Shown piece after piece: positions 19,596 to 58,390 of a stretch of 64,000 bases of DNA. Below the pieces are notes generated by a model. That model was not told where the DNA came from and made no database searches. It saw only the letters and a program-made list of their open reading frames with translations. Within the stretch, counting starts at the first letter, position 1; each line of letters begins with the position of its first letter. A program made the position numbers and the translations under genes. The stretch is from Spinacia oleracea (lineage: Eukaryota; Streptophyta; Magnoliopsida; Caryophyllales; Amaranthaceae): assembly GCF_020520425.1 (NCBI RefSeq), contig NC_079491.1:5691143-5755142 (forward strand), written 5' to 3'.

Positions 19596-20129
19596 ATGTC
19601 TTCCAAATCTGTAAAACTTGCATTCCTCTGCATCATCTTCTCCATCCAATCCTTGACCCTAATCAAAGCAGACGAAGCACTAATCACAAAATTATGCTCT
19701 TCAACCTCATCCCCAAAAGTCTGCACCAATTGTCTCGAATCAGACCCGAGTAGTAAAACTGCAAATGATGTTGGTTTAGTTGACATTTCCATGATTTGTG
19801 CTACAAAAGACATGGACATCTTATACCAGGATTCATTCAGGTATCAAGGTAATACTACTGATCCTGCAACAAAAGAGGCTCTTAATCAGTGTTTAGATCA
19901 ATTTGAGGATGCTAAAACCAAAGTTAATCAAATTTCAGATACAGTTCATAGCAGAGATTTCAATCTTGCACAACAACTTAGTAATAAAGTCTCACAACAG
20001 GTTATGAGTTGTAATCAGTTTTTTCAGGCTAAAGGGGTTCCAATGCCAGATGTTGTGGCTAATGACTTGAGTACTGTTTCTGGTGATTGGATTATTGTTA
20101 TGGACATTTTGGGTTCTCTCAAGTCTTGA
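19596..20129 (+). CDS. Pectin methylesterase / invertase inhibitor-like, copy A
   Basis: 177 residues, one exon, secreted. Residues 1-25 are a hydrophobic signal peptide (LAFLCIIFSIQSLTLIKA). The mature part has the PMEI fold markers: a first Cys pair C34-C43 spaced by eight residues and a second pair C99-C139 that closes the four-helix bundle. Two extra cysteines lie at 46 and 68. The length and the LITKLC...P..C start fit the family, which blocks pectin methylesterases or acid invertases in the apoplast; which target cannot be told. Copy B at 24410 is 149/177 identical by my count, with an identical signal peptide and homologous 3' flanks. Confidence 0.88.
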   Translation: MSSKSVKLAFLCIIFSIQSLTLIKADEALITKLCSSTSSPKVCTNCLESDPSSKTANDVGLVDISMICATKDMDILYQDSFRYQGNTTDPATKEALNQCLDQFEDAKTKVNQISDTVHSRDFNLAQQLSNKVSQQVMSCNQFFQAKGVPMPDVVANDLSTVSGDWIIVMDILGSLKS

Positions 20130-24409: not shown

Positions 24410-24943
24410 ATGTCCTCCAAATCTGTAAAACTTGCATTCCTCTGCATCATCTTCTCCATCCAATCCTTGACCCTAATCAAAGCAGATGAAGCACTAATCA
24501 CAAAACTATGTTCTTCAACCTCATTCCCAAAAGTTTGCACCAAATGTCTCCAATCAAACCCAAGTAGTAAAACTGCAACAGATGTTGCTTTAGTCGACAT
24601 TTCCATGGTTTGTGCTACAAAAGACATGGACCTGTTATACCAGGATGCATTCAGAATACAAGGTAGCAGTACTAATCCTGCTGCAAAACAGGCCCTTAAT
24701 CAATGTTTAGATCAATTTGAGGATGCTAAAACCAAAGTTAATCAAATTTCAAATACAGTTCATATCAGAAAATTCATTCTTGCACAACAACTTAGTAATA
24801 AGGTTTCACAACAAGTTTTTAGTTGCAATCAGTATTTTCAGGCTAAAGGGGTTACAATTCCAGATGCTGTGAATAATGACTTGAGTATTGTATCTGCTGA
24901 TTGGAGTATTGTTATGGACATTTTGGGTTCTCTCAAGTCTTGA
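24410..24943 (+). CDS. Pectin methylesterase / invertase inhibitor-like, copy B
   Basis: 177 residues, one exon, in the same orientation as copy A 4.8 kb upstream. The first 40 residues, including the whole signal peptide, are identical to copy A; nearly all 28 differences lie in the mature protein, many of them non-conservative (Y/I, D/K, N/I, M/F, I/S). The disulphide cysteines C34, C43, C99 and C139 are kept. Role: secreted inhibitor of pectin methylesterase or invertase. Flank similarity continues to about 25190, so the duplication unit includes the 3' UTR. Confidence 0.88.
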   Translation: MSSKSVKLAFLCIIFSIQSLTLIKADEALITKLCSSTSFPKVCTKCLQSNPSSKTATDVALVDISMVCATKDMDLLYQDAFRIQGSSTNPAAKQALNQCLDQFEDAKTKVNQISNTVHIRKFILAQQLSNKVSQQVFSCNQYFQAKGVTIPDAVNNDLSIVSADWSIVMDILGSLKS

Positions 24944-33638: not shown

Positions 33639-34260
33639 TGCTGCTACTGCTTCTGCTTCACCAGGAAAATGTGTCAGCATTAATCAAGTAAAATTAAACA
33701 AAAAGAAATCAGAAATTTGGGGGTTTTTCAGAGAAAGTAGAGAGAGAAAGAGGGGGAAAACCTTGTTTTTTTTGTTAATTTTCTTTACAGATGATGAATT
33801 GATGATGCATAAATATTGGAGTTTGTCCTATTTCTCTCTCCTGTATTTTTCTACTGCTACTTCTGCTGTTCTGAGTCACTCACTCTTGGTTTCTTTGATC
33901 TCCTTTTTAAATTGCTTTCTTTTTCATTCTCTTTTAATAAAAGAAAAATAAATATTGGAAGAATATGTGGAAATGCTTTAACTTTCCTTGGAAAACAACA
34001 AATTAGACTAAAGTTTGTGTGGATAACTGACACGTGGAATTATTAAAATAAATGGGTGGAAAGTAGGGAGAAAAATTAAAGAGGTGAAATGATGTCATTA
34101 TTACAGGTGTCCAATCAGAACTCAAGGAGTCCATGTCATTTGCTCTTGTGCTTTTTGTTACCTTACTTTCCAAACTTTGTCAACTTGGAAAATTGGTTCA
34201 CTCCCTTTGAGTCCATGACTGAGACTCCTTTTTTTTCGAGCTTGGCTAAACAAAACTAAA
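33639..34260 (-). promoter_or_regulatory. Di19 5' UTR and promoter region
   Basis: The stretch just before the Di19 ATG contains a GA/CT-rich leader (AGAGAGAAAGAGG near 33740). No unique TATA box could be fixed. No other gene is seen up to 34260. Confidence 0.4.
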
Positions 34261-34278
34261 ATGAAATGAAATGAAATG

Positions 34279-34820
34279 AACTGAACTGAAATGAACTAAA
34301 TTGAATAGAATTAAAGTCTAAAAGTAATGGTTGATTATTCATTTAATTGCACGTAAGAGGTTATACTGGTTACAAAAGATGAAATTTTAAAATTTCACAT
34401 TGTGCGAATAGAAGTTTCATCAAGAATTGTTTTTTCTCTTGTTTCAGTTAACCAAAAATCTTACACGCAGTAAAAAGTACGAGTATATATATGTCAAACA
34501 AACAATAACTAGTTAAACCAACATAACTAGTAAAACCAAAATTAAAATGAACTGAACTAAATTGAACTAAATGAAAATGTAACAAAATCTAAAAGTAATG
34601 GTCGATTATTCACTAATTGCGCGTAAGAGGTTACACTGGTTACAAAAGATGAAATTTTAAAACTTTACATTGTGCGAAATAGAAGTTTCATCAAAAATTA
34701 TTTTTTTTCGTGTTTTAATTAACCAAAAATCTTTTTAAAATGCGTTTATATAACACACTGTAAAAAGTACGAGTATATATATGTGGATCAAACAATAACT
34801 AGTAAAACCAAGATGACTTG
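34279..34820 (+). repeat. Two-copy tandem duplication of about 265 bp
   Basis: Unit A (about 34279-34540) and unit B (about 34545-34820) share in order: GAACTGAACT, TCTAAAAGTAATGGT, GTAAGAGGTTA, ACTGGTTACAAAAGATGAAA, CATTGTGCGAA, AGAAGTTTCATCAA and AAAAAGTACGAGTATATATA. Small indels separate them. It has no coding capacity. A (TGAAA)n tract marks the start. Confidence 0.85.
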
Positions 34821-35249
34821 AATTATTATGGTTAGTTAATGAAGATGTCTTGTATTGGAAAACTGGACTTCCAATGGCATAAGAGTTTCTCTTTTTGTTT
34901 TAGGCCAATCACAGGACTTTAAATTTCACAATGATCAATGCATAACTTTTTAAAAATAATTTTTAGAAATAATCCTTCCCAAGATTAAAGTATACTGTAG
35001 TACGGAGAACAATAGAAGTCTATGATTGACTTGTAAAAGTATACAGTACTTATATTTTGCTGTCCACCATTAGTTAATTGTCATGTGTTAAAAATTTAAA
35101 ATCATTTTTCTTTATTTACAAATTTTGATGTTCTGATAAAATTTGTCAATAATATTATGGAGTAATCCATAATCACTAATCAGAGCCAGGCTTATGCTCA
35201 GTACAATCACGGATAACTCGGAAAATACAATCAATAATAATACTATAAA

Positions 35250-35360
35250 TGACAATACAAATTACAAATGGAGAAGAAAAAAAATACAAAAATGTAACAC
35301 ATTGTATATAAATGCTCGATTTTAACCACTAGATTAAGACATTATTAGCAGTCATGCACA
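35250..35360 (-). mobile_element. Decayed SINE (family B)
   Basis: Resembles the intact copy at 37019-37159: ACAATACAAATTACAAATGG and TTAACCACTAGATTAAGACA occur in the same order and spacing. It lacks the GC-rich centre. An old copy. Confidence 0.45.
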
Positions 35361-35769
35361 TACGGAGAATTATTGGTACTCATGCACATATATATGGAGA
35401 AGTATTTAAACAAATAAACTGTTGTCATTAAAACTTAAAAGTTGCTTTATTAAGATTAAGACATTTTGCTTGTGATGCACGTTCAAAGGAAAAAAGAGAA
35501 TCTTTGCTGTGTGGAGTGTGCTTCTTTCTTTCTTTTCAATGGAAACTCACACTTTCTGCGTCTTTTTTTTTTTTTTTTTTTTTGGTAAAAACTTTGTGCG
35601 TCTTCATTAACAATTGTTTAGTGTGTTACGTGTTACCTAATTAATCTTCATTAAAGTTAAGCAATGTTCACCAACAAAAAGGCTTTTAAATATTTATTAC
35701 TCCTAGCTTCCATTTCAAAGTAATAGTTGCACCTCATTTTTCATTAGAAAAGTCAGAAAAAGAACTGAG

Positions 35770-36140
35770 AAGTGATAAAAGTTTAAAAAAATTAGTTTTT
35801 GTAATTAAACACCTTACTTATTTTTTATTATATTTAAACACCTTAAAAATCTAAAAATTTATAAATCAACACCGCTTAACGATTTCCATAAGAAAAAAAC
35901 GTTGATTTTTAATCATGCTATAACTTCCAAAGCATAATTTGATGGTAGAAGGAGTTGTTACCACCATATCATGCCTTGGGAACTTTAGCATAGTTAAAAA
36001 CTAATGTTTTTTCTAACAAAAATTGTCAAGTGGTGTTGATTTCTAAATTTTTTTTGTTTTTTAAGGTGTTTAAAAACAATAAAAAATAAGTAAGGTGTTA
36101 AATTACAAAAACTAGTTTTTTTTTAAGGTATTAAATGACA
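35770..36140 (+). mobile_element. Long-TIR MITE (MULE-like)
   Basis: Inverted arms of roughly 90-110 bp: ACACCTTACTTATTTTTTAT and AAATCAACACC at the left are mirrored by GGTGTTGATTT and ATAAAAAATAAGTAAGGTGT at the right. The central part is unique. The target duplication is not resolved because the flanks are A/T-rich. Confidence 0.65.
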
Positions 36141-36324
36141 AAAAATCCTAAGAAAGATGTTAATAAAAAATTTGTTTTTAGTCGAATTAATTATAAGCTA
36201 ATATAGTAATTAGCTTTTTTCCATTAGTACCTTGATTTCACGAAAATATTAAAAGTACCGATATCTTTTGGCTAAAATGTCCCTTCTCAAACATTACTTT
36301 GTCAAATTTTAATTCATTGCGGTT

Positions 36325-36548
36325 TGTTAAGGATAACGTTATCCCGGAGGATAGAATATCATATGAGATAGAAGTCTATAGGACTTAGGAATCCTACGAA
36401 ATGTAGGACATCTAGTTTTATATTACAAACTAGATGTCCTACACTTCGTAGAATTCCTAAGTCCTATAGACTTCTATCTCATGTCATATAACATAACTCT
36501 ATCTCATATGATATTTTATCCTCTATGATAACTACGTTATCCTTAACA
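36325..36548 (+). mobile_element. Foldback element, near-perfect palindrome
   Basis: 224 bp starting TGTTAAGGATAACG and ending CGTTATCCTTAACA, flanked by CGGTT on both sides (36320-36324, 36549-36553). Nearly the whole length folds back; the inner arms AGAAGTCTATAGGACTTAGG and their complement flank a short TTTTATATTACAAA loop. The superfamily is uncertain from a 5-bp duplication alone. Confidence 0.8.
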
Positions 36549-36791
36549 CGGTTCCATTCAAATTCATTCAATAATAAAATTGCAAAGAGAGAAGGTGAGG
36601 CATGCTAAATCAATTGGGACAAGTGCATGTCGAATTGGCAATTGTCCATTGTCCAGAGTTCCAAACTGAAATCCACAGGCATGCCATTCAATGAAACACA
36701 ATATTTTAGTCCGCAATGGTTGACTCATCATGCAGTAATTCCAGAGAAAGCAAACGATATTTTATAATTGTATAAACAATAATGCGTGTGG

Positions 36792-36820
36792 CAAAGACAA
36801 AGACAAAGACAAAGACGAAG
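36792..36820 (+). repeat. (CAAAGA)n microsatellite
   Basis: Four and a half near-perfect CAAAGA hexamers. Confidence 0.85.
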
Positions 36821-37011
36821 CCGCTGATTCAAGTTGGGTTAACCGTAAAGTGATTCTGGACAAATAGGACCCTTTTACAAATGGTTGGTCATGAATCATG
36901 ATTGTCAAATTGCTAATTTAGATGGTAAATATTCCCCTTTTTCTCTTTAAATTTGCAAAATTAAAAATTCGGACAAACTTAAGTAAACATTGAGAGTATC
37001 TAAAAAATAGA

Positions 37012-37018
<7 letters not shown>

Positions 37019-37044
<26 letters not shown>

Positions 37045-37159
37045 GGTGCGAATGAGCCACAAGGGCAATATAAATTACAAATGGGGGCGGGGGGATTCGA
37101 ACCTGAGACCTATTGTACACAGGCCCTCAGTCTTAACCACTAGGCCAAGACATCATTGG
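37019..37159 (-). mobile_element. tRNA-derived SINE (family B) with 18-bp target duplication
   Basis: On the minus strand: A-box TGGCCTAGTGGTTAAGACT, B-box GGTTCGAATCC, and a poly(A) tail seen as T(26) from 37019. It is flanked by TAAAAAATAGACAAATTT at 37001-37018 and 37160-37177, perfect over 18 bp, which makes this a young insertion. Related decayed copies are at 35250 and 42620. Confidence 0.93.
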
Positions 37160-37220
37160 TAAAAAATAGACAAATTTAAAAGTACAGAGAGAGTATGTAA
37201 TTCACATATTATGCATGTAG

Positions 37221-37513
37221 TAGATTTGATCAAAAGGCGGGTTGGGCTGGGTTCGGGTTGAGTCGATTGAATAAAAATCTGCCCATTATGTTGAGTTGGG
37301 TCGGTTCAAGCTTCGGACGAATTTTGTGTGCCCAAACTCGCTATTTCGGGTCATTTCGGGTCGGGCTAAATTTTTAACTAAGTTGTTGTTTTACGTTGCC
37401 CAAAATCCGCAATTTTTTAAAAAGTTCGGGCCCGAAAATTGGTCCGAAATATTCTGCCCAAAACATGCTAATTTTCAAGTCGGGTCGGGCCGGGCCCATG
37501 TTGATCAGCTCTA
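37221..37513 (+). mobile_element. hAT-type MITE, GGGTC-rich
   Basis: 293 bp. The ends TAGATTTGATCAA and TTGATCAGCTCTA are inverse, flanked by GCATGTAG (37213-37220) and GTATGTAG (37514-37521), an 8-bp duplication with one mismatch. Internal GGGTCGGG/CGGGCC motifs resemble the 17906 and 18627 elements in style only. Confidence 0.8.
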
Positions 37514-37521
37514 GTATGTAG

Positions 37522-38467
37522 CAATAGTATCAACTTGTTTCTCTTATTAAATACTACGTACTTCGTAATAGGGTCAATGTTTAATTTTAAATCTTGCTTA
37601 CAATTGATGACTTGGATGCTTAGCTTACTAGCTTAGTGACGAAGAATGAAGGTATACGTGTTCAATACGTTACAAGTTCAAATCTTCTTCTCTATTTAAA
37701 ATATGCACTGTCCTTATAACTCATTCACACCCGATATTATATCCCGCTTTAATAGACTGTATTTGTTTGCACTTTGCAACTCCCTCTTACCAACCCCAAA
37801 ATAATAAATAAAAAAGATAAAAAAAACATTTATTTGTGACCGAAAGTTGGGTCATTGATTAATATTATTTGAGGCAACCTAATGAAGCGATGCGATGGCA
37901 TATATATCTATGTCCTACAAAATGGAACGACGGCATGCAATAAGCGGCCAACAACATCATAATTTTGATCGCCAAATTATTAGACATCTCTTTTTTGTTC
38001 TTATTTAATTAATTATAATTAAGTAATGGGAAATGGTGGCCACTTTTCCGTTGAATGAATCCACATAAATTTATTTATATTAATGAATGTTTGCTATTAT
38101 AGTCAATAATAATTATTAAACTATAAGTTACGTAAAAAAATAGATTAGGCATACTAATTTGTTTATTCTTTCTTGTAAACAAGACCGACCTTCATATTCA
38201 CACGACATATTTATTTTCACAAGAACCCCTTAAAATATACTTTGTGTGAATGAGGTAAGAGAGCAATACTTTGGACACTGGTGAATTTTCAACAATTTTA
38301 CAAGGAGGTCAGCAGGTCCATTACAAGAATTAGACAATATACTATGTAGTATGTAATGTCAAACAATTATACTCAGTTTTTTTTCTTTTTGGTATGAAAG
38401 AGAGGCAAAGCCCAATCCCTAATTATACTCATATTTTAGGGGATTGAAATTGAAAATAAAATGCCTC
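37522..38467 (+). other. Intergenic, no gene seen
   Basis: AT-rich and without recognised features. Confidence 0.5.
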
Positions 38468-38472
38468 TTACG

Positions 38473-38855
38473 TGTTAGAAAATTCCTTGAATCGGTCAAA
38501 CCCCTTACTGCAACGCCCCATCACAGGGATCTCGCTGCCCGGTCAGCGAGTCGGGGTCCAGGGGTGACGCCCCTGGTTTAGGGGTTCGAGGACGCAACAT
38601 GGGTTATCGGTTATTCCGGACTAGGGTTATCTGTTTTGAGCCTATTTTCTGGATTTTTCTGCATCTGTCTAGAGAGTACTACATAAACTATCTAGGTCAT
38701 AACTTAGTTGTATTATGTAATATGTACTCCTCAAGATCAATAAAAATTTTCTTCCCTCTGTATGTGGACGTAGCTAACACATTGTTAGTGAACCACGTTA
38801 AATCTATGCGTTCTTTATTTACGTTATTTAATTTTTCTTTGCATCCGTTATAACA
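38473..38855 (+). mobile_element. Solo LTR, copia-like
   Basis: 383 bp starting TGTTAGAAAATTCC and ending CGTTATAACA, flanked by TTACG on both sides (38468-38472, 38856-38860). The AATAAAAATTTTC polyadenylation-type signal and the GTGAACCACGTTAAATCT segment in the right part are familiar from plant copia R-U5 regions. There is a GC-rich block at 38515-38600. With no internal region attached, it is a solo LTR. Confidence 0.85.
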
Positions 38856-38860
38856 TTACG

Positions 38861-39574
38861 TATTTGAACAGGCTCCGGTAGAAGGAAATTAAAATATGGT
38901 AGCTAGGCCGGTAGCTGGACTGTTAAGGTGGTAGTAGTTGGCTAGTTGCCACGCAAAATTAGCATAAAATTTATACTTTTTCATAGAATATATAGTCTTC
39001 TTTAGGTTGTTACCTACCCTAATTAACTAGGAAATAGGCACAATGGACTACTCTATTCCTTGCTGGTATACCAAATATTATACCCTACAAATTCAGTTTC
39101 TACGTTATGGTTGCACCACATTAGAGCCTTTTATGTATAATCAATATATAATACTACATCACTACAAATTATGTTTTGACCTAATAATTAAGACTGAGAG
39201 TCTGTGCATGTGAAGTGTAAACTGCTTTAGGTCCAAATCTCTTCCCTCCATTTATAATTTGTATCATCCTTAGACTCCTCGTGGCTCGCACCAAAAAGGA
39301 AAATAAAGTAATACACTATTACGGTCATACACTCATACGTACATCGGTACATGCATATGTTCAATAATCGCATTTGTTGACTTTCCAATATTGAATATGT
39401 AAAAATAGAATTACGTATACAATAATTGCATTTGTTGACTTTCCACAATTCAATAAGTAAAAATAGAATGCAGATAAGCGCAAGAGCTAGAGTTATGCGT
39501 TGACAAAATAAGATAAACCCATCGCCTAACAAGAAACGTCGATATAGGATAGAGGTTGTAACTTGTAAGATTAA
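38861..39574 (+). other. Intergenic, no gene seen
   Basis: The minus-strand open frame at 39227-39634 has no recognisable domain and runs into the SINE. A direct repeat (AATAATTGCATTTGTTGACTTTCCA) of about 20-25 bp is seen near 39363 and 39420. Confidence 0.45.
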
Positions 39575-39722
39575 AAAATCTCTATTGCTGAACTTGGTAG
39601 GGAAAACTCGTGTTCGATTCCCCCGCAACAACAATTTGGAGGGATTGAAACCTAACCACCCAAAACTCGCCCCGAATTCGGATTAGCCCTAAGAGTAAAC
39701 CGGGTGCTAACATAAAAAAAAA
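39575..39722 (+). mobile_element. tRNA-derived SINE (family A)
   Basis: Plus-strand copy of the 2118-2276 family: B-box GTTCGATTCCCCC, the shared CTCGCCCCGAATTCGG and GCCCTAAGAGTAAACCG blocks, then a poly(A) tail ending at 39722. Target duplication not found. Confidence 0.65.
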
Positions 39723-39937
39723 TGTCTATAATGTAAACAAATCATAAAAAAAACAATGGAAAACCCATTTAGGTCCAAAAACAAAATAGCTACGAACTTT
39801 AAAAGAGATAAAAAAAAAAAAAATCAAATTCTTAGCTAAAAATACATGAAATCATGTGAAACATAACTACGTCCTGCCACGTTATGATTAAGAGTCTGTT
39901 TGCAATACGTGTCTGATGTGAATCTCCGTCTACCCAT

Positions 39938-41518
39938 TTACACAAGAAGTTGTAATGGCCGCTTACTCGCTTGTTTAAACAAAACCAAACTCTCAACATA
40001 AGTAAAAACTGTATAATTAGAAGATCTAGCATAAGTTTTGGCAAGATCTCTAACCCTTTCTTTCTTCACATCATATGACTTTATCCCTTTCCCATCAACA
40101 GCAAACAATAACTCACCATTACTCTTGAAATGCAACAATTTATCAAATTGTAACGAAAATGTGTAACGTTTACTCCACGAATTCGACACACCGTACTCTC
40201 CCATCACCCAAATATCATTCCTAGATTGATAATGAGAACAATACACGGCGAGTGATCCTCCCAACATTGTCGGAAACTTCTCCTTTGGCTCATCATCGGT
40301 TTTTAACCCCTTAGGTAGCTCAAAATACTTAAAAACCTCGTTTTCAACATCAAATGAAACAATGTACATATCTTTATCCTTATACCATAAATCATCCTCG
40401 AGTTTCGGGCCAAAGTTTATCCAATGTATCGCGCCATTAACAAAGACTTGCCCCCCAACACTCCAGTACGGCGGAGGACTAACATTGTTGTTACTGGTCC
40501 ACGAGTTTGTACTAAGTGTATACACTTGTACGAAACCCGGGCCCGTGGCCCGGTACCGTTCCCCGAAATAGTACTTAATCTCGGCTTTAGGGTAAACCAT
40601 TACAACAACCTTATAATCTTTCTTAGATGCATCATAACCTAACCCTAGCTCAAGATACGTTGCTTCCCTCATAGCTTCGAACATAGGGTTAGGAACATTA
40701 ATAGAGCTATTTATAGAAGGATTCCATAATATAATCTCACGAAAACCTCTTGATTTACCTTTTTTAACCAAAACTAACCCATTAATATAGCTAATTAATT
40801 CATAAGCACCTTCATAATGATCATATAAGCTTTGTAATTCCATGACTTTTCGAAACGTATCACTTCGACGAACTAAAACATGTTCATCTTTAAGCCAACT
40901 TCTAGCTGGTCGATACATGACTAGTAAATGACTAACCTCGATATTGTTTTTGTAAGTTTCCATATGTGTAGAAACGAAATCTGAGTCATCGATTAAAGAC
41001 CGCCACGTGGAGGACACGGTCCGGAATTTTAGGAGGTCACGTGCGGGGAGTCTCGAGAGGATTTCTTCGACGAGGATTTCTTCCGGTAAGCCGCCGCCTT
41101 CGGTTTTAACCCTTTTCTTCCCCGCCGTGACAACCACCTCGTGTAGGGAGGAAACCTCCGTGAGTTTGTTAAAGAGGCGTTTTTTATCGGCTTTATCGAA
41201 GTTAAACTTGGTGGCGAAATATGATGCGATTGAATATAGCCACGCGTCGCTATGTAACGCTACCATGGATATCCACTCGTGTTTTGTCATGGTGTTCCGT
41301 ACAAAGTTGATCCCTAGTCTTGGTTCGGGAAGGTCCGAAAAAGATGGTATGTTGACCTCCCATTTTTGGTTCGGGTGCCCGTATAAGCATAGATTCGGGC
41401 TATTCGGATCACATAAACGGTAAAACTCTTCAAATTCCTTTGTTAATGCCTTGATCATTCCTCCTCTTCTACCTTTGAAATCCTTGATGACATCCTCCAC
41501 CGTTCGAGGATACGCCAT
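39938..41518 (-). CDS. Alfin-like domain / F-box fusion protein
   Basis: 526 residues from the MAYPRT start (ATG at 41518); an upstream in-frame ATG at 41584 would add 22 residues. One exon. Residues 1-134 are an Alfin-like N-terminal domain: PRTVEDVIKDFKGRRGGMIK, LCLYGHPNQKWEVN, LGINFVRNTM, EWISMVALHSDAWL, KADKKRLFNKL. In Alfin-like proteins this domain is followed by an H3K4me3-reading PHD finger; here the PHD is absent and an F-box follows (LPEEILVEEILSRLPARDLLKF, 144-165, then TVSSTWRSLI), then an F-box-associated domain (ILWNPSI, LGYDASKKDYKVV, FVNGAIHWI). F-box proteins bind SKP1 in SCF ubiquitin ligases. A TATA-like TTATATAAC is about 210 bp upstream. Lack of introns suggests that Alfin cDNA joined an F-box gene. 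Confidence 0.9.
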   Translation of the reverse strand: MAYPRTVEDVIKDFKGRRGGMIKALTKEFEEFYRLCDPNSPNLCLYGHPNQKWEVNIPSFSDLPEPRLGINFVRNTMTKHEWISMVALHSDAWLYSIASYFATKFNFDKADKKRLFNKLTEVSSLHEVVVTAGKKRVKTEGGGLPEEILVEEILSRLPARDLLKFRTVSSTWRSLIDDSDFVSTHMETYKNNIEVSHLLVMYRPARSWLKDEHVLVRRSDTFRKVMELQSLYDHYEGAYELISYINGLVLVKKGKSRGFREIILWNPSINSSINVPNPMFEAMREATYLELGLGYDASKKDYKVVVMVYPKAEIKYYFGERYRATGPGFVQVYTLSTNSWTSNNNVSPPPYWSVGGQVFVNGAIHWINFGPKLEDDLWYKDKDMYIVSFDVENEVFKYFELPKGLKTDDEPKEKFPTMLGGSLAVYCSHYQSRNDIWVMGEYGVSNSWSKRYTFSLQFDKLLHFKSNGELLFAVDGKGIKSYDVKKERVRDLAKTYARSSNYTVFTYVESLVLFKQASKRPLQLLV

Positions 41519-41914
41519 CGAAAGAACAGAACAGGATGGTGCGATATTTAGGGAACAGATGAAGTATAACGAACGGGAAATCAACGAAAAACGATCATCG
41601 TTTTCGCCTTTTGAAAGAGAAAATTAGAGATTTGAGTGTTTGAATTGAATAAAAGCTTAAATTTCTTGATGAAAATTCAAAGAAGTTTGGGGAAAAACTA
41701 GGAGAAATTGGTAGAAGTTATATAATAAGGCATGATGAAGGAAAGTAGTGGAGGAAAAGAATGAGTTTTGATAGGCCCAAAGAAGTAGAGGTAGGTGTAG
41801 ATGTTATATTTGACTATTATTCTTTTTTTCTTTTTATAGTGTGAATGAAGTGATTTCCATGTCCCTTAATAAATAAATATTATCCTTAACTATATACAAT
41901 TATTTATTTTATTA
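41519..41914 (-). promoter_or_regulatory. Alfin/F-box fusion promoter region
   Basis: A TATA-like TTATTATATAAC on the minus strand (about 41717-41730) lies at a reasonable distance from the ATG. A Stowaway MITE starts at 41915. Confidence 0.35.
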
Positions 41915-42164
41915 CTCCCTTCGTCCCGGAATACTTGACCTGTTTTCCTTATCGGGCCGTCCCATAATATTTGACCTGTTTCTAAAAATGAAAATATTCT
42001 AACAATATTATATTATTTCTCACTCCACCCCTATTAACCCACCTACCACCTACTCCATACAAAAAATAATTAAAAATTTCACCCTATTAAATTAAATAAG
42101 TCAATTCAAATCCCTTAAACTTTGTGCCGGTCAAACCGGGTCGAGTATTCCGGGACGGAGGGAG
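41915..42164 (+). mobile_element. Stowaway-type (Tc1/Mariner) MITE
   Basis: 250 bp with ends CTCCCTTCGTCCCGGAATACT and its inverse AGTATTCCGGGACGGAGGGAG, flanked by TA on both sides (41913-41914, 42165-42166). This is the classic plant Stowaway terminus. It sits about 400 bp upstream of the Alfin/F-box gene. Confidence 0.92.
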
Positions 42165-43551
42165 TATGAGTCATTGACATAAACCCAAGAAAGGTATATG
42201 TATTTTCCCTTAAAAAATAAAAATAAAAAATACTACGTATATATGTATGGGAGCCATTTGGGATTACTCTTGCCCCCCAAGAAAGAATGGAATAGGTCTT
42301 TTTGAAGTTGTAAAGTGTGTTATGCCTTGCCAATTTCCAATTTTATCTTTTTGTTTTGAATTCAAACTTGTATCAACATTATTGATGAGATTTAAGAAAG
42401 CTTAATTATCTCATCAGATGTGGATTGGATTTATGCAAACGAAAGACTGGGTATAACAAATTAAACAGAACGAGAGATATATATGAAAAGTAACTCTAAT
42501 AGATAATCACAAGGATGATTAATATCCTTAACAATTACTTGTGCTCGTTTTTGGGTATTTGATAATTGATACCCTACCACAAAAATAGGGTAGTTCCATT
42601 TATTTAGAATGAATCAGATTTTTTTTTTTTCAAGGGTAAATCTAGCTTATAAATGCGGGAGGGGAAACTCAAAATTGAAATGTATCATATACAGGCCCCC
42701 AATCTTTATCACTGGGCAAAACTTTTTTTGTTGGGTGAAACAGAATGGCCACCCAAAATAGTTAAATAATTCTTCTGTTTCAAAAAAAATTGCAACACTT
42801 TGAATAGCACGTTTGCCACGGAATAAATTTGACAATAATTATCTCTAATTATCTTTTTCAAAAACATCTTAAAATTTAATATTATATATAGTGAAATCAA
42901 TTCAACGACATTTACTTGATAACATTTGTTTTTAATAAATTAGTAAAAATATATGATCAAAGTTGGTGGATGAATAGTGTTGCAATTTTTATGACACGGT
43001 GGAAATATATTATTCACACAACAGTGCATCAACTATCTCATGGTAAACTTTAATCATTAACTCAACCTCGATTATTTTTGTGGTACCCAAGACTTGAAAT
43101 CAAATCTTGTATACGTCGTTATGTTCTCCACATTCAGAAAAAAGAAAAAAATAATTTTGTGGTATATGACTTTTTGGACATACCCTTGTACGGTTATACC
43201 CTTAACGTACAAGACTTAGCATCTTACAGTCTTACCTTCGTATCTGTACGTTTTCTACAAAATCAATTATTGGAAATTTAACTGTTTTTCGTAGTGAGCA
43301 GAGAAAATAGACGTTTGCCCCCACTCAACCCAACACATTAGTAGGTCTATGGAATCATGAACAGAGAGTATAGGATGATAAGCAAACCAATACATCAGTC
43401 AGGCCAAGTAAAAACGAATTTACATCAGTCAGGCCATCTGATAAAACATCGGTAACATGACCGTGGATTTACTTGTGAATATCACTAAGAAGTATTTCAA
43501 TTAGATGCTAACTGGACTTGCAATTCTCAATGTTTTTTAGCTTTTCAGGAA
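42165..43551 (+). other. Intergenic with SINE and MITE remnants
   Basis: A decayed family-B SINE (minus, about 42612-42718: poly(T), AAATGCGGGAGGGGAAACTC, ATACAGGCCCCCAATC) and a Stowaway-like remnant at about 42768-43005 (inverted ATTGCAACAC / GTGTTGCAAT) are visible. No gene is seen. The last 100 bp may be the NLR 3' UTR. Confidence 0.45.
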
Positions 43552-46500
43552 TTACACCACAGAAATATCAGGGATGTGTTGAATAAGTGGCCAGTTTTCG
43601 CCATCCGGGAACTCACATCTTCTCTGAAGTTCAGGACACAGAGAGATCCGAAGTTCCTGTAACGAAGTGAGGCGATGGAAAGACTCTGGAAGTACAACTA
43701 TCTTAGGACATTCACGGATTTCAAGAACACGAAGCTGACTGAGGTTCCCTATCCACTCTGGTAGGGCTCTTAAGTTGGCGAGACTGACGATTTTTAGCCT
43801 CTGAAGTACTGTCAGACTACCAACTTCCTCAGGGAGCATCTCTATTTTCGGGATGTCCCACAATTCTAAGGAACACAGGCTCTTGAGACCGTGCCAAGCT
43901 GTTGATTTGATACTATTGTATCCAAAGTCCAACTCTTCACAATGCCGAATTTCCAGTTCCTTGAGAACAGAAAGATGCAGTAGTGCACTCGAAATGTCTG
44001 TCAATCTGCAACATTCTTCAATTACAAGTCGATGGAGAAAGGTTGGAGATTCGGCAACCAAATGGATCAGTTCTTGGCATTCAGAAATTAATAGGGCTTT
44101 TCCAGTGAAAAGATTGATCGAGAGTGAAACTAGTTCCTGCACCGAGTGTATATTAAGCCACTTCATTGTGAAAAGAGCTGATTCCTCTGCAGAAAGAAGA
44201 TCTTTCAGTAGCTTCCCATGGATTTCATTGGCATCCAGGGACTCAAGCCTTGGTACCACAGGGACCCACATCAGTTTCGAGCAACCTTCTATCCAGAGTT
44301 CAGAAACACAAGGGAAATATAACCTCTGCATCAGAGAATTCTGATGTTCCTCCAATCTTGACCATCCCTTTAACTCAGGCAAATCTAACAACATCAAAGA
44401 TTCTAAGGATGGAAAGTATTTCTCTGCAGAAGAACTTCTTATACTGTTATCATCACCACCGCTCTCTATGTACTCCAACACACTGAGGTCACAGAGACGA
44501 AGAAATCTGAGATGAGGAAGTCTACTGAAGCTTGGGAGATGATTGCATCTATGGCAGGATCTAATAGATATATAAACAAGGTAAGGGAACTCGTTCATCC
44601 CCCATCGTGGAAACTGCACTCCTTTCCAACCCCAAACTTTCAGACGTTTTACAGATGGAGGAGGCTGCAGCCATTTTAACACATCTTCCTCCACATCGGC
44701 ATAAACATCATGCTCTACATATGATGATGACCATTTTACGAATAAGTTTGTCATCTTCTTATCCTTCAAATTTGCTGCTCTGGCTTCTGATACCGCTTTC
44801 TGACGATGTTTTACATAACAGATTTTGAGCTCACCGGCAAGATTATTCAATCTAGCTAGTGCATCTAGACCATTACTTTCCCCCACTATAAATATGTCTA
44901 ATGCCCGGAGAGATGTTAATTCCCCAAAGCAAGAAGGCATATCAATCAATCTCTCTCCATTATGCAAATTTCGGAGCTTGATCAATTTATTAAAACCTCT
45001 TGGCAATTCCTTAAGCTTGTAACACCTCTTGATATCCAGAGTACACAAGTTCTTCAACTTTGTGATGCCATATGGGAGAGATTCTAAACTTGACCCAAGT
45101 CTGACATACCTGAGGTGCTTCAGTTCCTCGATGGAGTTCGGGAGGCTCTTACAGCTCGCATTAAACAAGTCCAATGAGCGTAAGCACCTCATACTTGAAA
45201 ACATTTTATCAGTCTTTTGTAAGACGGAATCTGACAAAACAAGAAGAGATCGCATTGTCTTGGCAGCAAACAACTCTAATGGAGCTGATCCAGCATTCAA
45301 ACTCAAGTGGAAAATACAGTCAGTATTAGTAATCTGCTGATTTGGCCTTTCTATCAAAAGACAATCATCTGATGCCATATTTCGTGCCAAGTCATTCATT
45401 AAACTGTGCATCTTGCAGCTGATTACATCATCATACTCATTTCGTATAACATCTTGAAAGAAAGATCTTCGAAGCAATTCCATGAAATATGCATGACCAA
45501 TATCCTCCGGGGTTTCATTCCCAGTTGATGACCTAATAAACCCTTGGGCCATCCAAAGGTAAATCAGACATTGCTTATCGATTTCATAATCCTTGGGAAA
45601 CAACGAACAATAAGCAAAGCACTGCTTCAAGTGTGATGGTAGGTGGTCGTAGCTCAATTTCAATGTTGACATGACACTGTTGTCATTTTGTTCTATCATT
45701 CTGAGCTCACTATCCTTGAAACACTCCCATTCCTGCTCGGTATCTTTAGAATAGAGAAGGCCAGCAATGGTCCTAATAGCAAGCGGAACATTGGCACACT
45801 TCTTAACAATTTCTTTGCCGATGGTTGTAACCCTTGGATTCCTCTTCTGTTGTCCCTCCTTAAACGCTAGGCTTTTAAACAAAGCCCATGACTCATCCTC
45901 TAGCAAGCCTCCCAATTCATAGGGTTGAACTGTGCCCAGGTTTTGAGCAACTACTCCAGACCTCGAGGTCACAATTATTTTACTTCCTCGTTTACCTCCA
46001 AACAACAGCCGCCTCAAAACAAGCCATCTCTCACGGTCTTCATCCCACACGTCATCTAATACAAGCAGGTATCTTTTATCATCTACAACTTCCCGCAGGC
46101 ATGATTGAAGTTGATCCATATTGAGCTGTTGATAATCATCTTCATCAGTAACAAGACTAACAGCTATAAGAATTTTCCTAGATAACTCTTCTACACTAGA
46201 AATCCCAGAAACACATGCCCAGCCTTTTAGCTCAAAATGTTTTTGAACATCTTTGTCGTTGTAAGCAAGTTGGGCAAGTGTAGTTTTCCCAAGACCACCA
46301 ATCCCAACAATTGGGATGATTGACACACTTGCTGCTTCAACATGGTCAGCATCCAAAAGCATCTGTACAATCACAGTTTTGTCCCCGTCTCTACCAATCA
46401 CCTCTTCCTCTGAAATGAAAGAAGATGTTTCTCTCCCATTCATCGAATTAATCACACGTTCCTCAAATGAAAGCACCCTAAGGTTAAGGGTACTCATATC

Positions 46501-46917
46501 TGATCTAATAGCCTCAAGTTCCCCAATAACAACCTTCGCCTCTCTTGCAATTTTTTTATTGATTATAACAGGATTTGAAGATGAACACAGCATAAAAGCC
46601 ATAAATAAGTGTTTGGTCATCTTACCTGCAGGAATGCGTTCATTCTCTTTATCAGCCATAGCAACCTCTTCGAACAAGTCCTCCAATCGGTAAATTATAA
46701 TTTTCAATCTATTAAGCCACTGTTTGACCAGAGCTTCATTCTCACCTTCACCTCGTCTCTCTGCATCCAGAAGTCGGGCTTGGATTAGCTTCATTGTCCT
46801 GTTAAGCTCTTTCAGTTTACGTCTTCCACCTAAATAAGGGGTGAGAGCATTAACAGTTGAATGACTCATATACTCCAAAAGTTTCACGACAACACCAGAT
46901 ATAATGGATTCTGCCAT
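43552..46917 (-). CDS. CC-NB-LRR disease resistance protein (RGA-like)
   Basis: 1,121 residues in one exon. An intracellular immune receptor. N-terminal Rx-type coiled coil (1 to about 150, with LVKQWLNRLKIIIYRLEDLFEE at 63-84). NB-ARC: P-loop GIGGLGKTT (205-213), FELKGWACVS RNBS-A (228-237), kinase-2 YLLVLDDVWDE (283-293), GSKIIVTSRS RNBS-B (311-320), a GLPL site reading NVPLA (376-380), CFAYCSLFPKDYEI RNBS-D (433-446), and an MHD site reading MHS (503-505). About 560-1110 is an LRR domain with LPNSIEELKHLRYVRL, LPRGFNKLIKLRNL and LPEEVGSLTVLQRL repeats. The full length looks intact. The Asp-to-Ser change in MHD and the NVPL variant are unusual, as MHD regulates nucleotide exchange. Confidence 0.95.
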   Translation of the reverse strand: MAESIISGVVVKLLEYMSHSTVNALTPYLGGRRKLKELNRTMKLIQARLLDAERRGEGENEALVKQWLNRLKIIIYRLEDLFEEVAMADKENERIPAGKMTKHLFMAFMLCSSSNPVIINKKIAREAKVVIGELEAIRSDMSTLNLRVLSFEERVINSMNGRETSSFISEEEVIGRDGDKTVIVQMLLDADHVEAASVSIIPIVGIGGLGKTTLAQLAYNDKDVQKHFELKGWACVSGISSVEELSRKILIAVSLVTDEDDYQQLNMDQLQSCLREVVDDKRYLLVLDDVWDEDRERWLVLRRLLFGGKRGSKIIVTSRSGVVAQNLGTVQPYELGGLLEDESWALFKSLAFKEGQQKRNPRVTTIGKEIVKKCANVPLAIRTIAGLLYSKDTEQEWECFKDSELRMIEQNDNSVMSTLKLSYDHLPSHLKQCFAYCSLFPKDYEIDKQCLIYLWMAQGFIRSSTGNETPEDIGHAYFMELLRRSFFQDVIRNEYDDVISCKMHSLMNDLARNMASDDCLLIERPNQQITNTDCIFHLSLNAGSAPLELFAAKTMRSLLVLSDSVLQKTDKMFSSMRCLRSLDLFNASCKSLPNSIEELKHLRYVRLGSSLESLPYGITKLKNLCTLDIKRCYKLKELPRGFNKLIKLRNLHNGERLIDMPSCFGELTSLRALDIFIVGESNGLDALARLNNLAGELKICYVKHRQKAVSEARAANLKDKKMTNLFVKWSSSYVEHDVYADVEEDVLKWLQPPPSVKRLKVWGWKGVQFPRWGMNEFPYLVYISIRSCHRCNHLPSFSRLPHLRFLRLCDLSVLEYIESGGDDNSIRSSSAEKYFPSLESLMLLDLPELKGWSRLEEHQNSLMQRLYFPCVSELWIEGCSKLMWVPVVPRLESLDANEIHGKLLKDLLSAEESALFTMKWLNIHSVQELVSLSINLFTGKALLISECQELIHLVAESPTFLHRLVIEECCRLTDISSALLHLSVLKELEIRHCEELDFGYNSIKSTAWHGLKSLCSLELWDIPKIEMLPEEVGSLTVLQRLKIVSLANLRALPEWIGNLSQLRVLEIRECPKIVVLPESFHRLTSLQELRISLCPELQRRCEFPDGENWPLIQHIPDISVV

Positions 46918-47279
46918 AATTGTTCCCCACCCCCTGATCCCTACTGTTTTGACTCTCTCTTCCCTCTTCTATTTCTAGCTTTGATCTTGCTAACTCTTTG
47001 AATCAGAAAACTGGGTAAGTATTGCAGAAGAGTTTTTGCAATCTCGCCATACAATTACCCTATTCTCTGAAAAGCCTAAGATATTTTTGGGTATGAAATT
47101 GCAGGGAAAGTACTGGGACCAAAGATCTGACTCTGGTGAGTGGTGAGGATCCTTCATCCTTTGCTTTTCAGTGTAGCTTCCTGGGCTATTATAAAGTCAA
47201 CAAGGAAAAGTCAAAATTGGCTATTTGATTATCACTTAAATAATTATCCCTGCAACACCAGGCTTTTGCGAATTAAATA
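46918..47279 (-). promoter_or_regulatory. NLR 5' UTR and promoter region
   Basis: The stretch before the NLR start is C/T-rich near 46930-46980 and probably contains the 5' UTR. The transcription start was not fixed. A 5'-UTR intron is possible. Confidence 0.3.
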
Positions 47280-47538
47280 CTTCTTCCTTTCTCTTTTAGT
47301 TGCAACGTTTTGACTTTTACGATTGACAATGCACATCTTTGACCATTAATATCTCTAATCGTGTACAAGTAAAAGTTATAAAAAATTGATATTGTGAAAA
47401 TACATAATCGAGATAAATTATAACAAGAACCTACGTGACCCTGTTTTAGTTTATGCAAAATCATCAAAGCCGGTCAAAAGAGAAAATATGAATAGTGTAA
47501 AAGTCAAAAACGTTGCAACTAAAAGAGAACGGAGTAAG
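47280..47538 (+). mobile_element. Stowaway-like MITE upstream of the NLR
   Basis: 259 bp with long inverted ends: CTTCCTTTCTCTTTTAGTTG at the left and its near inverse CAACTAAAAGAGAACGGAG at the right, flanked by TA (47278-47279, 47539-47540). It lies about 360 bp upstream of the NLR start codon. Confidence 0.85.
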
Positions 47539-48204
47539 TACGTTTAATTTAATTAGATAACCTGACCATAATAGCAACTAATCATGCCGTTAAGAGTAAT
47601 ATCCTACGAGTATATTCTAAGAGCCAAGAAGGATAGTATATTATTGACAACTGATTGCAATAGATTAAGGTCTTTCTGATTAATACTTCATACCTTCCTT
47701 GTGAAAGTGATGGCTAACAGAATATTCTGGATAGTTATAACAGCAGTGACAGTTGACCAATCTCCCTTTCCTCCTTCCCACACGTCGTTAACAGCATAAT
47801 CTGGATCATCTGAAATAAAACAAAACAGTCACCTGCTCATTGTATATTTACCATTAAACCATTTCTACAACAACTTTTTAGCATCCTATGTAACTATTAG
47901 ATATCCTTGTAGGTTCATCCAGAAAACCCTTGCGTTCTGTTCAATTACAACAATGAATCTACATTTGGTCTTTTGGATGCCTTCTTCCTTCACGATTAGT
48001 TGCTTTAATCAATTTACTGGACTACTACCCTGAATCTGGCATTTTCCGGAATCACAAATGCTACCGCAAGCTGAATCAATCAAATTCTGCATAATTTATC
48101 CCAAATAATGCCAAAATCCTTCATTTCCAACCTAATTTGAACCAATAGAAGCTGGACTATGCAGACACAGATTTTGAGCTCGTAAAGTACTGAATGAAGT
48201 CCTT
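47539..48204 (+). other. Intergenic, no gene seen
   Basis: No convincing open frame or repeat. Confidence 0.45.
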
Positions 48205-49147
48205 AGACTTGAGTAATTCATCCGTAATCACTGGTACTGTTTCCACCTCCCAACTCTAGTAACTATACTACTTTGAGGAAGGCTAGTAGATTATAAATGA
48301 GGCACATCTAGCAGCAATTTATAGAAAATAAATTTTAATTTGGAAACATTAAATATGAGGTCATTATTCCAAAAAAAAAAAGGGTTGAAGATAGCCACAA
48401 CTTTGATCACATTGTAAAATGTCAAAATCCCTAGCAAGTTCCAAAAGTACAAGTACCGCTTCAGAAGGTTAAGGTTAATCCCAACTAAAGTAAAACTTCT
48501 AAACAACCTTCCTCCGAATGATGACATAACTGGCATGAACCACCATGGTAGGAGTTAGAGAAGGGTGATGAATGGATCAAGAGTTTAAGACAGATTTTCT
48601 AATGTATTTGGCTCCAAAGTATAGTTCCAAAATTCTTTCAAAAATGTATCTCTATGATGTATGAAGAACTGTTCTTTCTTCTTGGCATGTAATGACTGTT
48701 CAACAACGAACCGATTGTAAGCTACTTTTAACTCGGGCACTTAAATGTAATAGCAGATAGAGTAATGTGAGCTTAGGATGACACCAAGAAAAACAGCAAC
48801 AGCAGGGTTGAATAATTCATGAAATATGCATTATAAAAGCCATAATCTTTCAAGCTACAACCTTACACTCAAAAAAATCACTTCCCTACACTTAAAGAAA
48901 ATACATTGATGATATCCTTTTGAAGTAAAAGAGCTAGCATTAGAAAGTTACCCGGAGCATTTTCCAACACAACCTTTTGAACATCAGGGATATTCTTTGA
49001 AGTATATTTCAAAATTCCAAGAAAATTACACATTTTCAACAAATAATTCTCGCTTTCATCATGAAGACATGTAGGCATCAGAGAGAACCACAACAGCCTT
49101 GGCAGAGGGGTGGAACAACCTCCCTTAGTGGATGCAGCCCTGATGTT
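48205..49147 (-). mobile_element. Internally deleted hAT derivative
   Basis: 48205-48885 matches 50020-50670, the 3' non-coding part of the full-length hAT (for example GGTTAAGGTTAATCCCAACT, GGTAGGAGTTA, GGCATGTAATGACTGTTCAA). It is joined directly to 48890-49085, a near copy of 52240-52430 that encodes NIPDVQKVVLENAPGNFLML. About 1.6 kb of coding DNA is missing between the two parts, so this is a deleted, non-coding relative. Confidence 0.75.
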
Positions 49148-49427
49148 CATTAATTGCTTTTGTCCTAGTCATTCCAGTTTAATTGCTTTTGTCCTATTAT
49201 TAGAAGTTGTGTTTAAATAGGAAAGGGGAAGGAAAACAGAAGTATGTTGAGAGCGAATGGTTAAGTGGGAGAGTTGAGAGCCTCTCGAAACGTTCTCTAT
49301 TTTGTAAACAAGCCTTAGCTTTATCCCTTAATATTACAAATTACTTTCTCTATTTCTTGTTGTTCTCTGTTATTGTTATCACTAGTCTGCTTGGAATTCC
49401 TGAGTTGCTTGCATAAACCCAATAACA
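49148..49427 (+). mobile_element. Solo LTR-like remnant
   Basis: 280 bp ending CCCAATAACA, flanked by ATGTT on both sides (49143-49147, 49428-49432). A TATA-like TTTAAATAGG and a GAGAGCCTCTCGAAACGT segment are in LTR-like positions. The 5' terminus is not a perfect LTR start. A fossil. Confidence 0.5.
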
Positions 49428-49432
49428 ATGTT

Positions 49433-50019
49433 AAAATTCCTCCATTTCTTTAATTCCTTGCAGAAGCTTACACTTTACATATGCAAGCTTTGATGGCCAA
49501 ACACATCAAGTAGTGGCTAACTGCTACAATTTAAAGACACTACTTGACTCTGCTTCACAGAATCACAGTTCATAAAATTACAGCACAAACGCCGGAAACA
49601 AAGACACCAGTGATAAAAAAAAACGGGTTCCACTATAGTTGCTGGGGTATCAACACATAGTCACATACATATAAATATATAAAAGCAACTAGTGAATTCT
49701 TTTGAATCAACTGAAGAATAATGTAACAAGTCAACAAAGATTAGAGAAAGGACATACCTTATTACCCCTTATCATAATATCATTCTTCAACCCATGCAAC
49801 ATTTTCATCTTGCTTCCCTCCACCTACTGCGTCATAGAATACTAAGCTCTTGTGCAAGCAGACTTTGTAGTCAAAGAGTTTACTGTTCCTTCTTTCTGGA
49901 AGATACTTGGTCAACTTCCTTAGAACATGAAACAGCTCCACCCCTTCATCTTTTATAACAAAAGGTAACCCAGTAGACGAAGTACTAGAACAGTTATCAG
50001 CTAAATCGACTTATTGAAT
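49433..50019 (-). other. Unidentified coding-like remnant
   Basis: Minus-strand frame at about 49790-49996 reads without stops for some 68 codons (LFHVLRKLTKYLPERRNSKL, then HKSLVFYDAVGGGKQDE) and ends WVEE before a stop at about 49789, with a GT site (GGTATGTCC) about 20 bp further on. It looks like an exon of a gene I do not recognise. No partner exon was found. Confidence 0.3.
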
Positions 50020-53000
50020 AGAGCGAGTAGTTAATCCGTAATCACTGGTACTATTTCCATCTACCTGCTCTAGTAAATCTACTTAAAGGTCTTACAGCAA
50101 CTGAACTAGGTCTTACAGCAATAGAGTGAAATAAAATTTTATCCGGAAACATAAAATATGAAGTCATTATTCCAATAAAAGGGTCTCATATAGAAACAAC
50201 TATGACCACATTGTGAAATGTAAAGATCCCTAGCAAGATCCAAAAGTACAAACTCCCCTTCGGAAGGGTTAAGGTTAATCCCAACTTAGGTAAAACTTCT
50301 AAACAACCTTCCCCTGAATGTTGACATAACTGACATTAACCACCACGGTAGGAGTTATAGAAGGGTGATGAATGGATCAAGAGTTCAAGAAAGATTCTAT
50401 TGTATTTGGCTCCAAAGTACAGTTCCAAAAATCTTTCAAAATGTATCTCTATGATGTATGAAGAACTGTTCTTTCTTCTTGGCATGTAATGACTGTTCAA
50501 CAAAGAACCGATTGGAAGCTACTTTTAACTTGGGCACTTAAATGTAGCAGATAGAGTAATGTGAGCTAAGGATGACACCAAGAAAAACAACAACAGGGTT
50601 GATAATTTATGAAATATGCATTATAAAAGCCACAATCTTTCAAGCTACAACCTTACACTCAGTACTTAAAGAGAATAATATTACAATTGTTCTAGTACTT
50701 CTAGTTGAGTTCTCATATTTTCAAACTGATTTACAATAGCATCAATGCTAACATCTACAAATAAATCTTTCTCTAAAGTAGTAACCAAACAATCACTCAA
50801 CACTTGATCTCCTGCACTATTACGCAATTTATTTTTAACAAAATTCATTCCAAAACATGCTCTTTCTACATTTGCCATTGCCACGGGCAGAAGCAAAACC
50901 AACTTCAAAAGCATGTAGACTTTGGAATGAGCTTCATTCTTCGTTGCCTCGACAAGTTTAATAGAAAGCTCATTAAGATTCTTCACCTCCCAAAATCTCT
51001 CATCATTCTGAATATCATCAATGAAATTCCCAAGTGCTTGTTCAAAATTTAACAAATCAACATTTGAAAATTCATTGGGATAAAACTTGGCAAGCCGGAG
51101 CAATTTTATTTTGTCAAAGGAAGAAAATCGATTAATGGGATCAAAGCAAGACATACAAATAAGTAATTCTTTGTTTACCTCATCAAACCGATTTTCAAGT
51201 TCCTGCAATTGTTGATCAATTACACTTTCAAAGACTTCAACTCGAAAATGGTGAAGATTCGCTACTTGTGGCATACCACAACCATACTTTCTTCTCCTCG
51301 GAGCAACATACATTCCCTCCATATTAGGAATCTCAACCCCATGTTTAACCATAAAAGAGGTGACTGTGTCCATATGAGAATCCCAACCATCATCCCTTAA
51401 CTCTTGTAAAAGCTTCTTACATATATCAACCACAGATATTGCATTCGCAAGATTTCGATCCATCAATTGTAAAGATGCGTCGAAAGTATTTTCAATCCCA
51501 AATACAGATATCATCAAAAATGCCACAAAAACAAAATCAAATGACATCAATGAATATGTAAGTGACTCGGCTTTATTCTTGTCACCTCTTTCTTTGGAAA
51601 CATCACCAATGGCATCAAGCGACTCAAGGATTGTGGGATACAAATCAATAACATTCAAAACCATTGTAAGGTGAGATCCTAAACAAGTGCTCCAACGGCT
51701 GCTCGAGCTAAGTTCCTCAATTTTATCTAAAGATAATGCCTCTACAACACGTTCACCTTGTCTTTGTCTAAGAAATTATTTCCGCTCGGGTGAACCATCC
51801 ACATAATTCACCAATGTGGTAAGTACATCAACAAACAACCAATTACAATCAGCATTCTTTTTAGCAACAACAGCTAGAGTTAGCTGAAGTTGGTGAGAAA
51901 AACAATGAACATAATACGCTGATGGAGATTCCCTCATGATTAAAGTTTTGATGTCATGAATTGCATCTTGCATTTTCCCAGCACCATTGTAACATTGACC
52001 TCGAACTCTAGACAGACTTAGAGAGTGCTCCATAAGCAATGACTCGGTTGTAGCTTTCAATGTCAAAGAATTAGTATCGGGAACATACACAATACCAAGA
52101 AAACGCTCTATTATTTCTCCTTTCTTACTGATATACCGCAAAAAGAGAGTCATTTGATCTTTATCACATAAATCTGCACACACATCGACAAGGATAGAAA
52201 AAATTCCATCACCAAGTTCTTCAATGATGGCTTTAGTTGTCTCTTTTGCACAAACATTGATGATATCCTTTTGAATTAAAGGAGCTAGCATTAGAAAGTT
52301 ACCCGGAGCATTTTCCAACACAACCTTTTGAACATCAGGGATATTCTTTAAAGTATATTTAAAAAATCCAAGAATATTACACATATTCAACAAATAATTC
52401 TCGCTTTCATCATGAAGACGTGTAGGCATCCCTTGAAGTAAAATCCACCTCATACATCCAACTGAATCTTTTAATTGCTTTCGATATCGACTTGTAACTT
52501 GTTCAGAATTGGAAAAAACAGATGATTGAACCCATTTGACATTGAAAATCATTTAAACTTCGCAAAGCTTGATTATGAGCACTCAAAGGTCCACCAACAT
52601 GCTCGTCAAACGCATTTGACTTGCTCCATGTTCTAAATCCTTCACTAACAAAAGCGTCTCCCCCAACCGAAACCTCATTTTCAAACAGATAGCAAATGAA
52701 GCAAAAAGCTGCCTCTTTGGTAACACTATACTCAAGCCAAGGTTTATACTTTCCAAACCATCTACGGTTAAAACGGCACACTGTTTTCTCAAAAGGACTT
52801 TGACTGAAGTTGGGTTGAAAAGGTTTTCTTCGAATATATTCTCTCCTAACCATATCCCTATGATTCGGATGAAAAGCACTCATCTTCCTTCTTTCTCCCG
52901 GGTCTTGAGGAAGACTTCGAACATCCAATTTACTTAATCTTCCATGATCAATCAAAGCTTCAGTCCTAACATTCGAACTATCTCCAGATTCTGTTTCACT

Positions 53001-53177
53001 CTCTTGTTTTAGAGCAATACCCCCGGTTTCATCAAATGGAGGAATATGGGTAGATGATGAAGAATTTTTTTTACTTGCTTGAGTTGGGATGGGATTTGGA
53101 CTAGTGGTATTTACAATTTCTTTACAAATCCGTTTCTTAAAGAAACTTGAAATATCCTTCTCTTTTGTTCTCTTCAT
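50020..53177 (-). mobile_element. Full-length but broken hAT element (ZMYM1-like transposase)
   Basis: On the minus strand from ATG 53177: a basic FFKKR start typical of hAT TTF proteins, a TTF-type zinc finger (KPWLEYSVTKEAAFCFICYL), a DUF4371/RNase H-like core with RVRGQCYNGAGKM, and a C-terminal hAT dimerisation segment (LLLPVAMANVERACFGMNFV, then LEKDLF). It ends at 50681, with roughly 650 bp of 3' sequence to 50020 shared with the deleted copy. A frameshift at about 52540 and one in-frame stop at 51774 (after GSPERK) break the frame. The terminal repeats were not resolved. Confidence 0.85.
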
Positions 53178-58319: not shown

Positions 58320-58390
58320 CCCTACTAGCTCAAATGGTAGAGCATTGTGCAAATACACAAAAGATGTGGGTTCAAATCCCACGTAGGCTC
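58320..58390 (+). tRNA. tRNA-like sequence, probably a pseudogene
   Basis: Cloverleaf parts are visible: acceptor stem with 5 of 7 pairs (CCTAC/GTAGG), D-arm GCTC...GAGC with A-box TAGCTCAAATGGTAGAGC, anticodon stem TTGTG/CACAA with only a six-base loop, and a perfect T-arm GTGGG TTCAAAT CCCAC (B-box). The short loop and weak acceptor argue against function; anticodon uncertain. Confidence 0.5.

Follow-up and report, generated by a model that had tools for sequence, protein, structure and literature searches.

The minus strand of the window, that is, of the whole 64-kb stretch of DNA analysed here, carries at 39938-41518 a single-exon chimeric coding frame in which an Alfin-like domain is followed by an F-box and an F-box-associated region. 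The frame starts with an ATG at 41518, its stop codon ends at 39938, and it comprises 526 codons plus stop, giving a product of 526 aa. We tentatively read this product as a lineage-specific SCF adaptor that could be aimed, by means of its captured Alfin/PAL domain, at Alfin-like (AL) proteins or at Polycomb PRC1, a reading that we hold as a real possibility rather than a probability. As found in one genome, the fusion adds a new interaction module to a plant F-box protein, a combination that looks unusual.

Domain Organization of the Fusion Protein

The Alfin/PAL domain occupies residues 6-130 (41129-41503, minus strand). Pfam PF12165 matches here with an E-value of 7.8e-46 and 155.4 bits (cut-off 21) over profile positions 1-126, so that 126 of the 127 positions are covered with no stop or frameshift. 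The F-box lies at residues 144-181 (40976-41089, minus strand; Pfam PF00646, E 7.4e-10, 38.8 bits, cut-off 20.5). It is followed by an F-box-associated region at residues 243-476 (40091-40792, minus strand), delimited by the NCBIfam model TIGR01640 (F_box_assoc_1; E 1.7e-26, 93 bits, cut-off 37.9) and including the Pfam matches FBA_3 (E 1e-06) and FBA_1 (E 1.7e-06), both above their cut-offs and located between residues 358 and 475. The sequence-only reading of this DNA had named the same three parts in the same order within one intronless frame, and the models that it proposed for scanning (PF12165, PF00646 and F-box-associated models) all scored above cut-off; the 526 codons run without interruption. 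The Alfin and F-box domains are separated by a linker of residues 131-143, TAGKKRVKTEGGG, at 41090-41128 (minus strand), close to the 41095-41120 at which the junction had been placed by eye. The linker includes a basic stretch, KKRVK, which we take to resemble a monopartite nuclear localisation signal.

A frame of this length would be expected by chance with a probability of about 3e-17 at the local base composition, and the five other frames of 39938-41518 contain 18 to 63 stops each. When the whole fusion protein was compared with solved structures, two distinct sequences only were retrieved at an E-value of 0.1 or better, both of them AL N-terminal domains: those of AL7 (5xvj, 4.3e-44) and AL2 (5xvl, 1.7e-41). 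The part from the F-box onward gave, up to E 10, one weak match, to F-box only protein 44 (E 0.63). Structure models of the full-length protein (mean pLDDT 33) and of the Alfin half by itself (mean pLDDT 48) were too poor for use. A Foldseek search with the Alfin-only model returned 114 matches at E 10 but none reaching E 0.001, with no AL chain in the best 50 of the 114; this outcome was disregarded because the model is poor.

No PHD finger was matched in the fusion protein at E 0.1 (Pfam), and none was found on the minus strand of 37001-43500, the region and strand to which the scan extended. The earlier claim that the PHD is missing thus holds for the protein and for that stretch.

Continuity of the Alfin and F-box Halves

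In-frame methionines occur at codons 1, 21, 77 and 85 and then at codon 186, downstream of the F-box. As no further ATG stands in frame in the interval bounded by codons 85 and 186, the F-box lacks a separate start. Neither is there a YAG splice acceptor in codons 90 to 179; AAG and GAG trinucleotides are present in these codons, YAG being the usual acceptor and a rarer one possible. Lacking both its own start and a YAG acceptor, the F-box is therefore most simply taken to continue the Alfin half, and the coding sequence indicates that the two halves are most likely one protein.

These results also bear on an artefact of assembly or gene modelling that merged two genes. That a single assembly is the source of the sequence speaks for it; yet the junction is in frame, the F-box has neither start codon nor YAG acceptor, and the 64-kb window holds no further copy of Alfin or F-box from which a misjoin might have resulted, the remaining tblastn hits up to E 10 having E-values of 1.2 and 8.6. 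We regard such an artefact as highly improbable.

The GC content at third codon positions of the first 140 codons is higher by 0.15 (p 0.0021), which fits two origins of the coding sequence. We place little weight on this shift because the value falls near codon 200, away from the Alfin/F-box junction.

Upstream Region and Genomic Neighbourhood

The upstream region of the fusion gene (41519-41896, minus strand) provided word matches only. TATA-like words stand at -206, -320 and -378, as expected by chance in A+T-rich DNA, and upstream ATGs, likewise word matches only, at -80 (41598, minus strand; 5 codons), -215 (11 codons) and -342 (8 codons). At 41913-42166, roughly 400 bases further upstream than the gene, we observed an inverted-repeat element that begins TACTCCCT and has 34-base arms, 88% complementary to each other; presumably this is a Stowaway-like MITE.

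The gene adjoining the fusion (43552-46917, minus strand) is a single frame of 1121 aa with Rx_N, NB-ARC, winged-helix and LRR matches, i.e., a CC-NB-LRR disease-resistance gene. On the plus strand, an EF-Tu gene was found at 13328-14785; its product is extended N-terminally by about 77 residues, and the gene is probably a nuclear one that encodes plastid EF-Tu. The plus strand also has two similar frames of 177 aa at 19596-20129 and 24410-24943; the former of the two was scanned and matches the invertase/pectin methylesterase inhibitor family. Of three adjacent frames at 50681-53177 (minus strand), one matches DUF4371 strongly (1e-46) and another has a weak match that stays under the cut-off; together they are probably a hAT-like transposase relic. 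Frames at 6729-7190 (plus strand) and 20762-22066 (minus strand) resemble by eye fragments of copia-type and LINE-type reverse transcriptases. Other features of the window are a local duplication whose two to three copies are spaced 270-290 bases apart (34249-34818) and a tRNA-like gene (58319-58390, plus strand; 45.7 bits), to which ARAGORN gave no anticodon identity.

Origin of the Fusion

Five exons are usual among AL genes. According to the available part of one report, this number applies to all AL genes on a tree of three Brassicaceae species (PMC3698079); cotton AL genes are described, in the excerpt at hand, as having five exons with few exceptions, poplar genes with six and eight being cited (PMC11243875), and the corresponding part of a wheat study gives 2 to 5 exons for AL-B genes (PMC11256656). 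The Alfin half of the fusion gene is uninterrupted by introns, as against the usual five exons and four introns, and an RNA intermediate is therefore suggested.

Other traces that retroposition can leave were sought around the gene. In the 600 bases downstream there is no A run of at least 8 and none of the words AATAAA, AATGAA or ATTAAA. As to a target duplication, the junction and the 400 bases upstream of the gene share no word longer than 7 bases, a length in line with chance (p 0.53). No direct repeat of at least 30 bases brackets the gene within 34000-50000, as LTRs would. Old retrocopies can lose both the poly(A) tract and the target-site duplication, as stated in the part of PMC2846932 on which we draw. 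Retroposition, put forward as the origin in the sequence-only reading, is thus plausible: the absence of introns speaks for it, but neither poly(A) tract nor target duplication was found. It may have taken place into or beside an F-box gene, or an RNA produced by read-through or template switching may have been reverse transcribed; either is plausible. In outline, the gene probably goes back to a processed AL cDNA that ended short of the PHD and was fused in frame with an F-box gene.

Divergence and Selection on the Alfin Half

Aligned with AL7, the Alfin half is identical at 69 of 127 positions (54%), and with AL2 at 63 of 127, while AL2 and AL7 agree with each other at 96 of 127 aligned positions (76%). 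Its PF12165 score is 155 bits, compared with 233 for AL7 and 235 for AL2, and relative to both it is three residues short in one loop. Judged by alignment and profile match, this is a genuine Alfin domain that has diverged. The stretch FDKADKKRLFN appears to resemble AL3/4/5-type proteins, and some of the changes may come from the parent AL lineage.

Such divergence, far beyond that of AL2 from AL7, would also suit a chimera that is young or unexpressed and serves no selected function, a recent fusion whose frame has not yet decayed. This explanation is possible, if somewhat doubtful, and the substitutions themselves point both ways. The Alfin half keeps 57 of the 96 positions at which AL2 and AL7 are the same (59%); at the positions where these two differ it equals one of them in 18 of 31 cases (58%), a count that accepts two residues per position and is thus easier to meet. 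With the two proportions so close, the changes do not spare the shared positions, and the conservation pattern of the family is not visibly preserved. The open frame is also weak evidence, because neutral runs (600 for each setting) stayed free of stops in 11% of cases with 39 amino-acid changes, and in 31% with 20.

Against a chimera of this kind, the changes lean towards the conservative: 27 of the 39 at positions shared by AL2 and AL7 have a BLOSUM62 score of at least 0, where single-base changes made at random would give 20.8 (p 0.022). The nearly end-to-end Alfin match, and F-box and F-box-associated matches above their cut-offs, are further points against it. None of these is decisive, because many of the changes may predate the fusion. 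Overall, signs of selection on the Alfin half are weak and mixed.

V34 of AL proteins is reported, in the accessible portion of PMC9603649, to be necessary for binding a G-rich DNA motif; the same portion states that AtAL6 also lacks this valine and is yet functional. In our alignment, in which the register of position 34 is our own reading, the equivalent residue of the fusion protein is F29, with E30 next to it at the DNA-binding positions. With F29 and E30 at positions reported to bind DNA, binding of G-rich DNA by the Alfin half has probably been lost.

It could then be asked whether the Alfin half is merely a passenger that gives a start codon and promoter to an active F-box half. The divergence of the domain, the replacement of the valine by F29 and the want of a separate F-box start would all suit such an arrangement. 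However, the domain is kept at 126 of 127 profile positions, and the cited account of a functional AtAL6 shows that loss of the valine need not mean loss of function. We consider a passenger Alfin half distinctly unlikely.

Comparison with Known Families

The fusion protein has its N-terminal Alfin/PAL domain in common with the Alfin-like PHD proteins AL1-AL7. It differs from them in having an F-box and F-box-associated region instead of the PHD, in being encoded with no introns, and in its more diverged PAL domain. The AL domain order, one Alfin and one PHD, is called extremely conserved across the green lineage in the part of PMC6599366 available to us, where one exception, with three Alfin domains, is named. 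With plant F-box proteins of the FBA_1, FBA_3 and TIGR01640 type, the fusion shares the succession of F-box and F-box-associated region; in contrast to them, it carries an additional domain, Alfin, ahead of the F-box, and the F-box lacks its own start codon. F-box genes turn over fast in plants.

Fusions of an F-box with a phloem lectin domain, described in the excerpt of PMC2846932, likewise pair the F-box with a binding module that might steer the ligase. In those proteins the added module comes from a lectin family, whereas in the present one it is the domain with which chromatin-associated AL proteins bind their partners, and it lies N-terminal to the F-box.

No description of an Alfin–F-box fusion was found in the open literature searched, which was judged mostly by titles and the openings of abstracts; this agrees with the initial statement that no established family is known with the order Alfin then F-box. 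An earlier annotation of this architecture in databases is quite possible. Relatives were also sought in collections without plants. Prokaryote genomes and viral contigs were each scanned with six short patterns that detect close relatives only; in the former 10 stretches matched a short peptide pattern and 0 were confirmed, in the latter 1 stretch matched and 0 were confirmed. No relative was found in plasmids or phages. As these collections hold no plants, the results have no bearing on plant orthologues.

Proposed Function

An SCF adaptor of the kind favoured here would work through all three parts of the protein. To go by its domain, the F-box would bind an SKP1/ASK protein and hence CUL1. 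The PAL domain would place the ligase on AL proteins or PRC1, its partners in a normal AL protein presumably being other ALs and, in RING1, the C-terminal (RAWUL) region; the F-box-associated region may bind substrate or assist. Components of PRC1 or AL proteins would then likely be turned over or titrated. Since it lacks a PHD, the fusion protein should not read H3K4me3 itself.

The notion that SCF is tethered to Polycomb-linked partners was part of the sequence-only reading, and it gains a footing in the available text of PMC3900384, where yeast two-hybrid assays show that the N-terminus of AL6, lacking the PHD, binds AtRING1a as well as other ALs; the contact in Arabidopsis is with the C-terminal part of AtRING1a. 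The Polycomb link has a basis because this PHD-less fragment binds AtRING1a, but binding by the fusion protein itself remains putative. From the same source, complexes of AL PHD proteins with PRC1 were proposed to switch H3K4me3 chromatin to repression.

That a fragment without PHD is enough for these contacts (PMC3900384, in the part cited) is also what a decoy would need. In such a case the PHD-less PAL domain would dimerise with ALs or block RING1/BMI1, whether or not SCF is recruited, and the absence of the PHD from the fusion protein is in keeping with this. The F-box and F-box-associated region are nevertheless present, with scores above cut-off, and a pure decoy has no need of them. A decoy in place of a degrader seems to us quite improbable.

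A more specific form of the SCF adaptor reading is that of a natural degrader, in which PAL domain and SCF adaptor together bring about the proteasomal removal of H3K4me3 readers or of PRC1 RING proteins and so control the switch between active and repressed chromatin. We consider this unlikely, if worth stating. More generally, a protein that retains the AL half for binding partners, has lost the histone reader and has acquired a ubiquitin-ligase adaptor would link chromatin-state switching directly to targeted protein turnover, and would exemplify regulatory wiring newly made by domain fusion.
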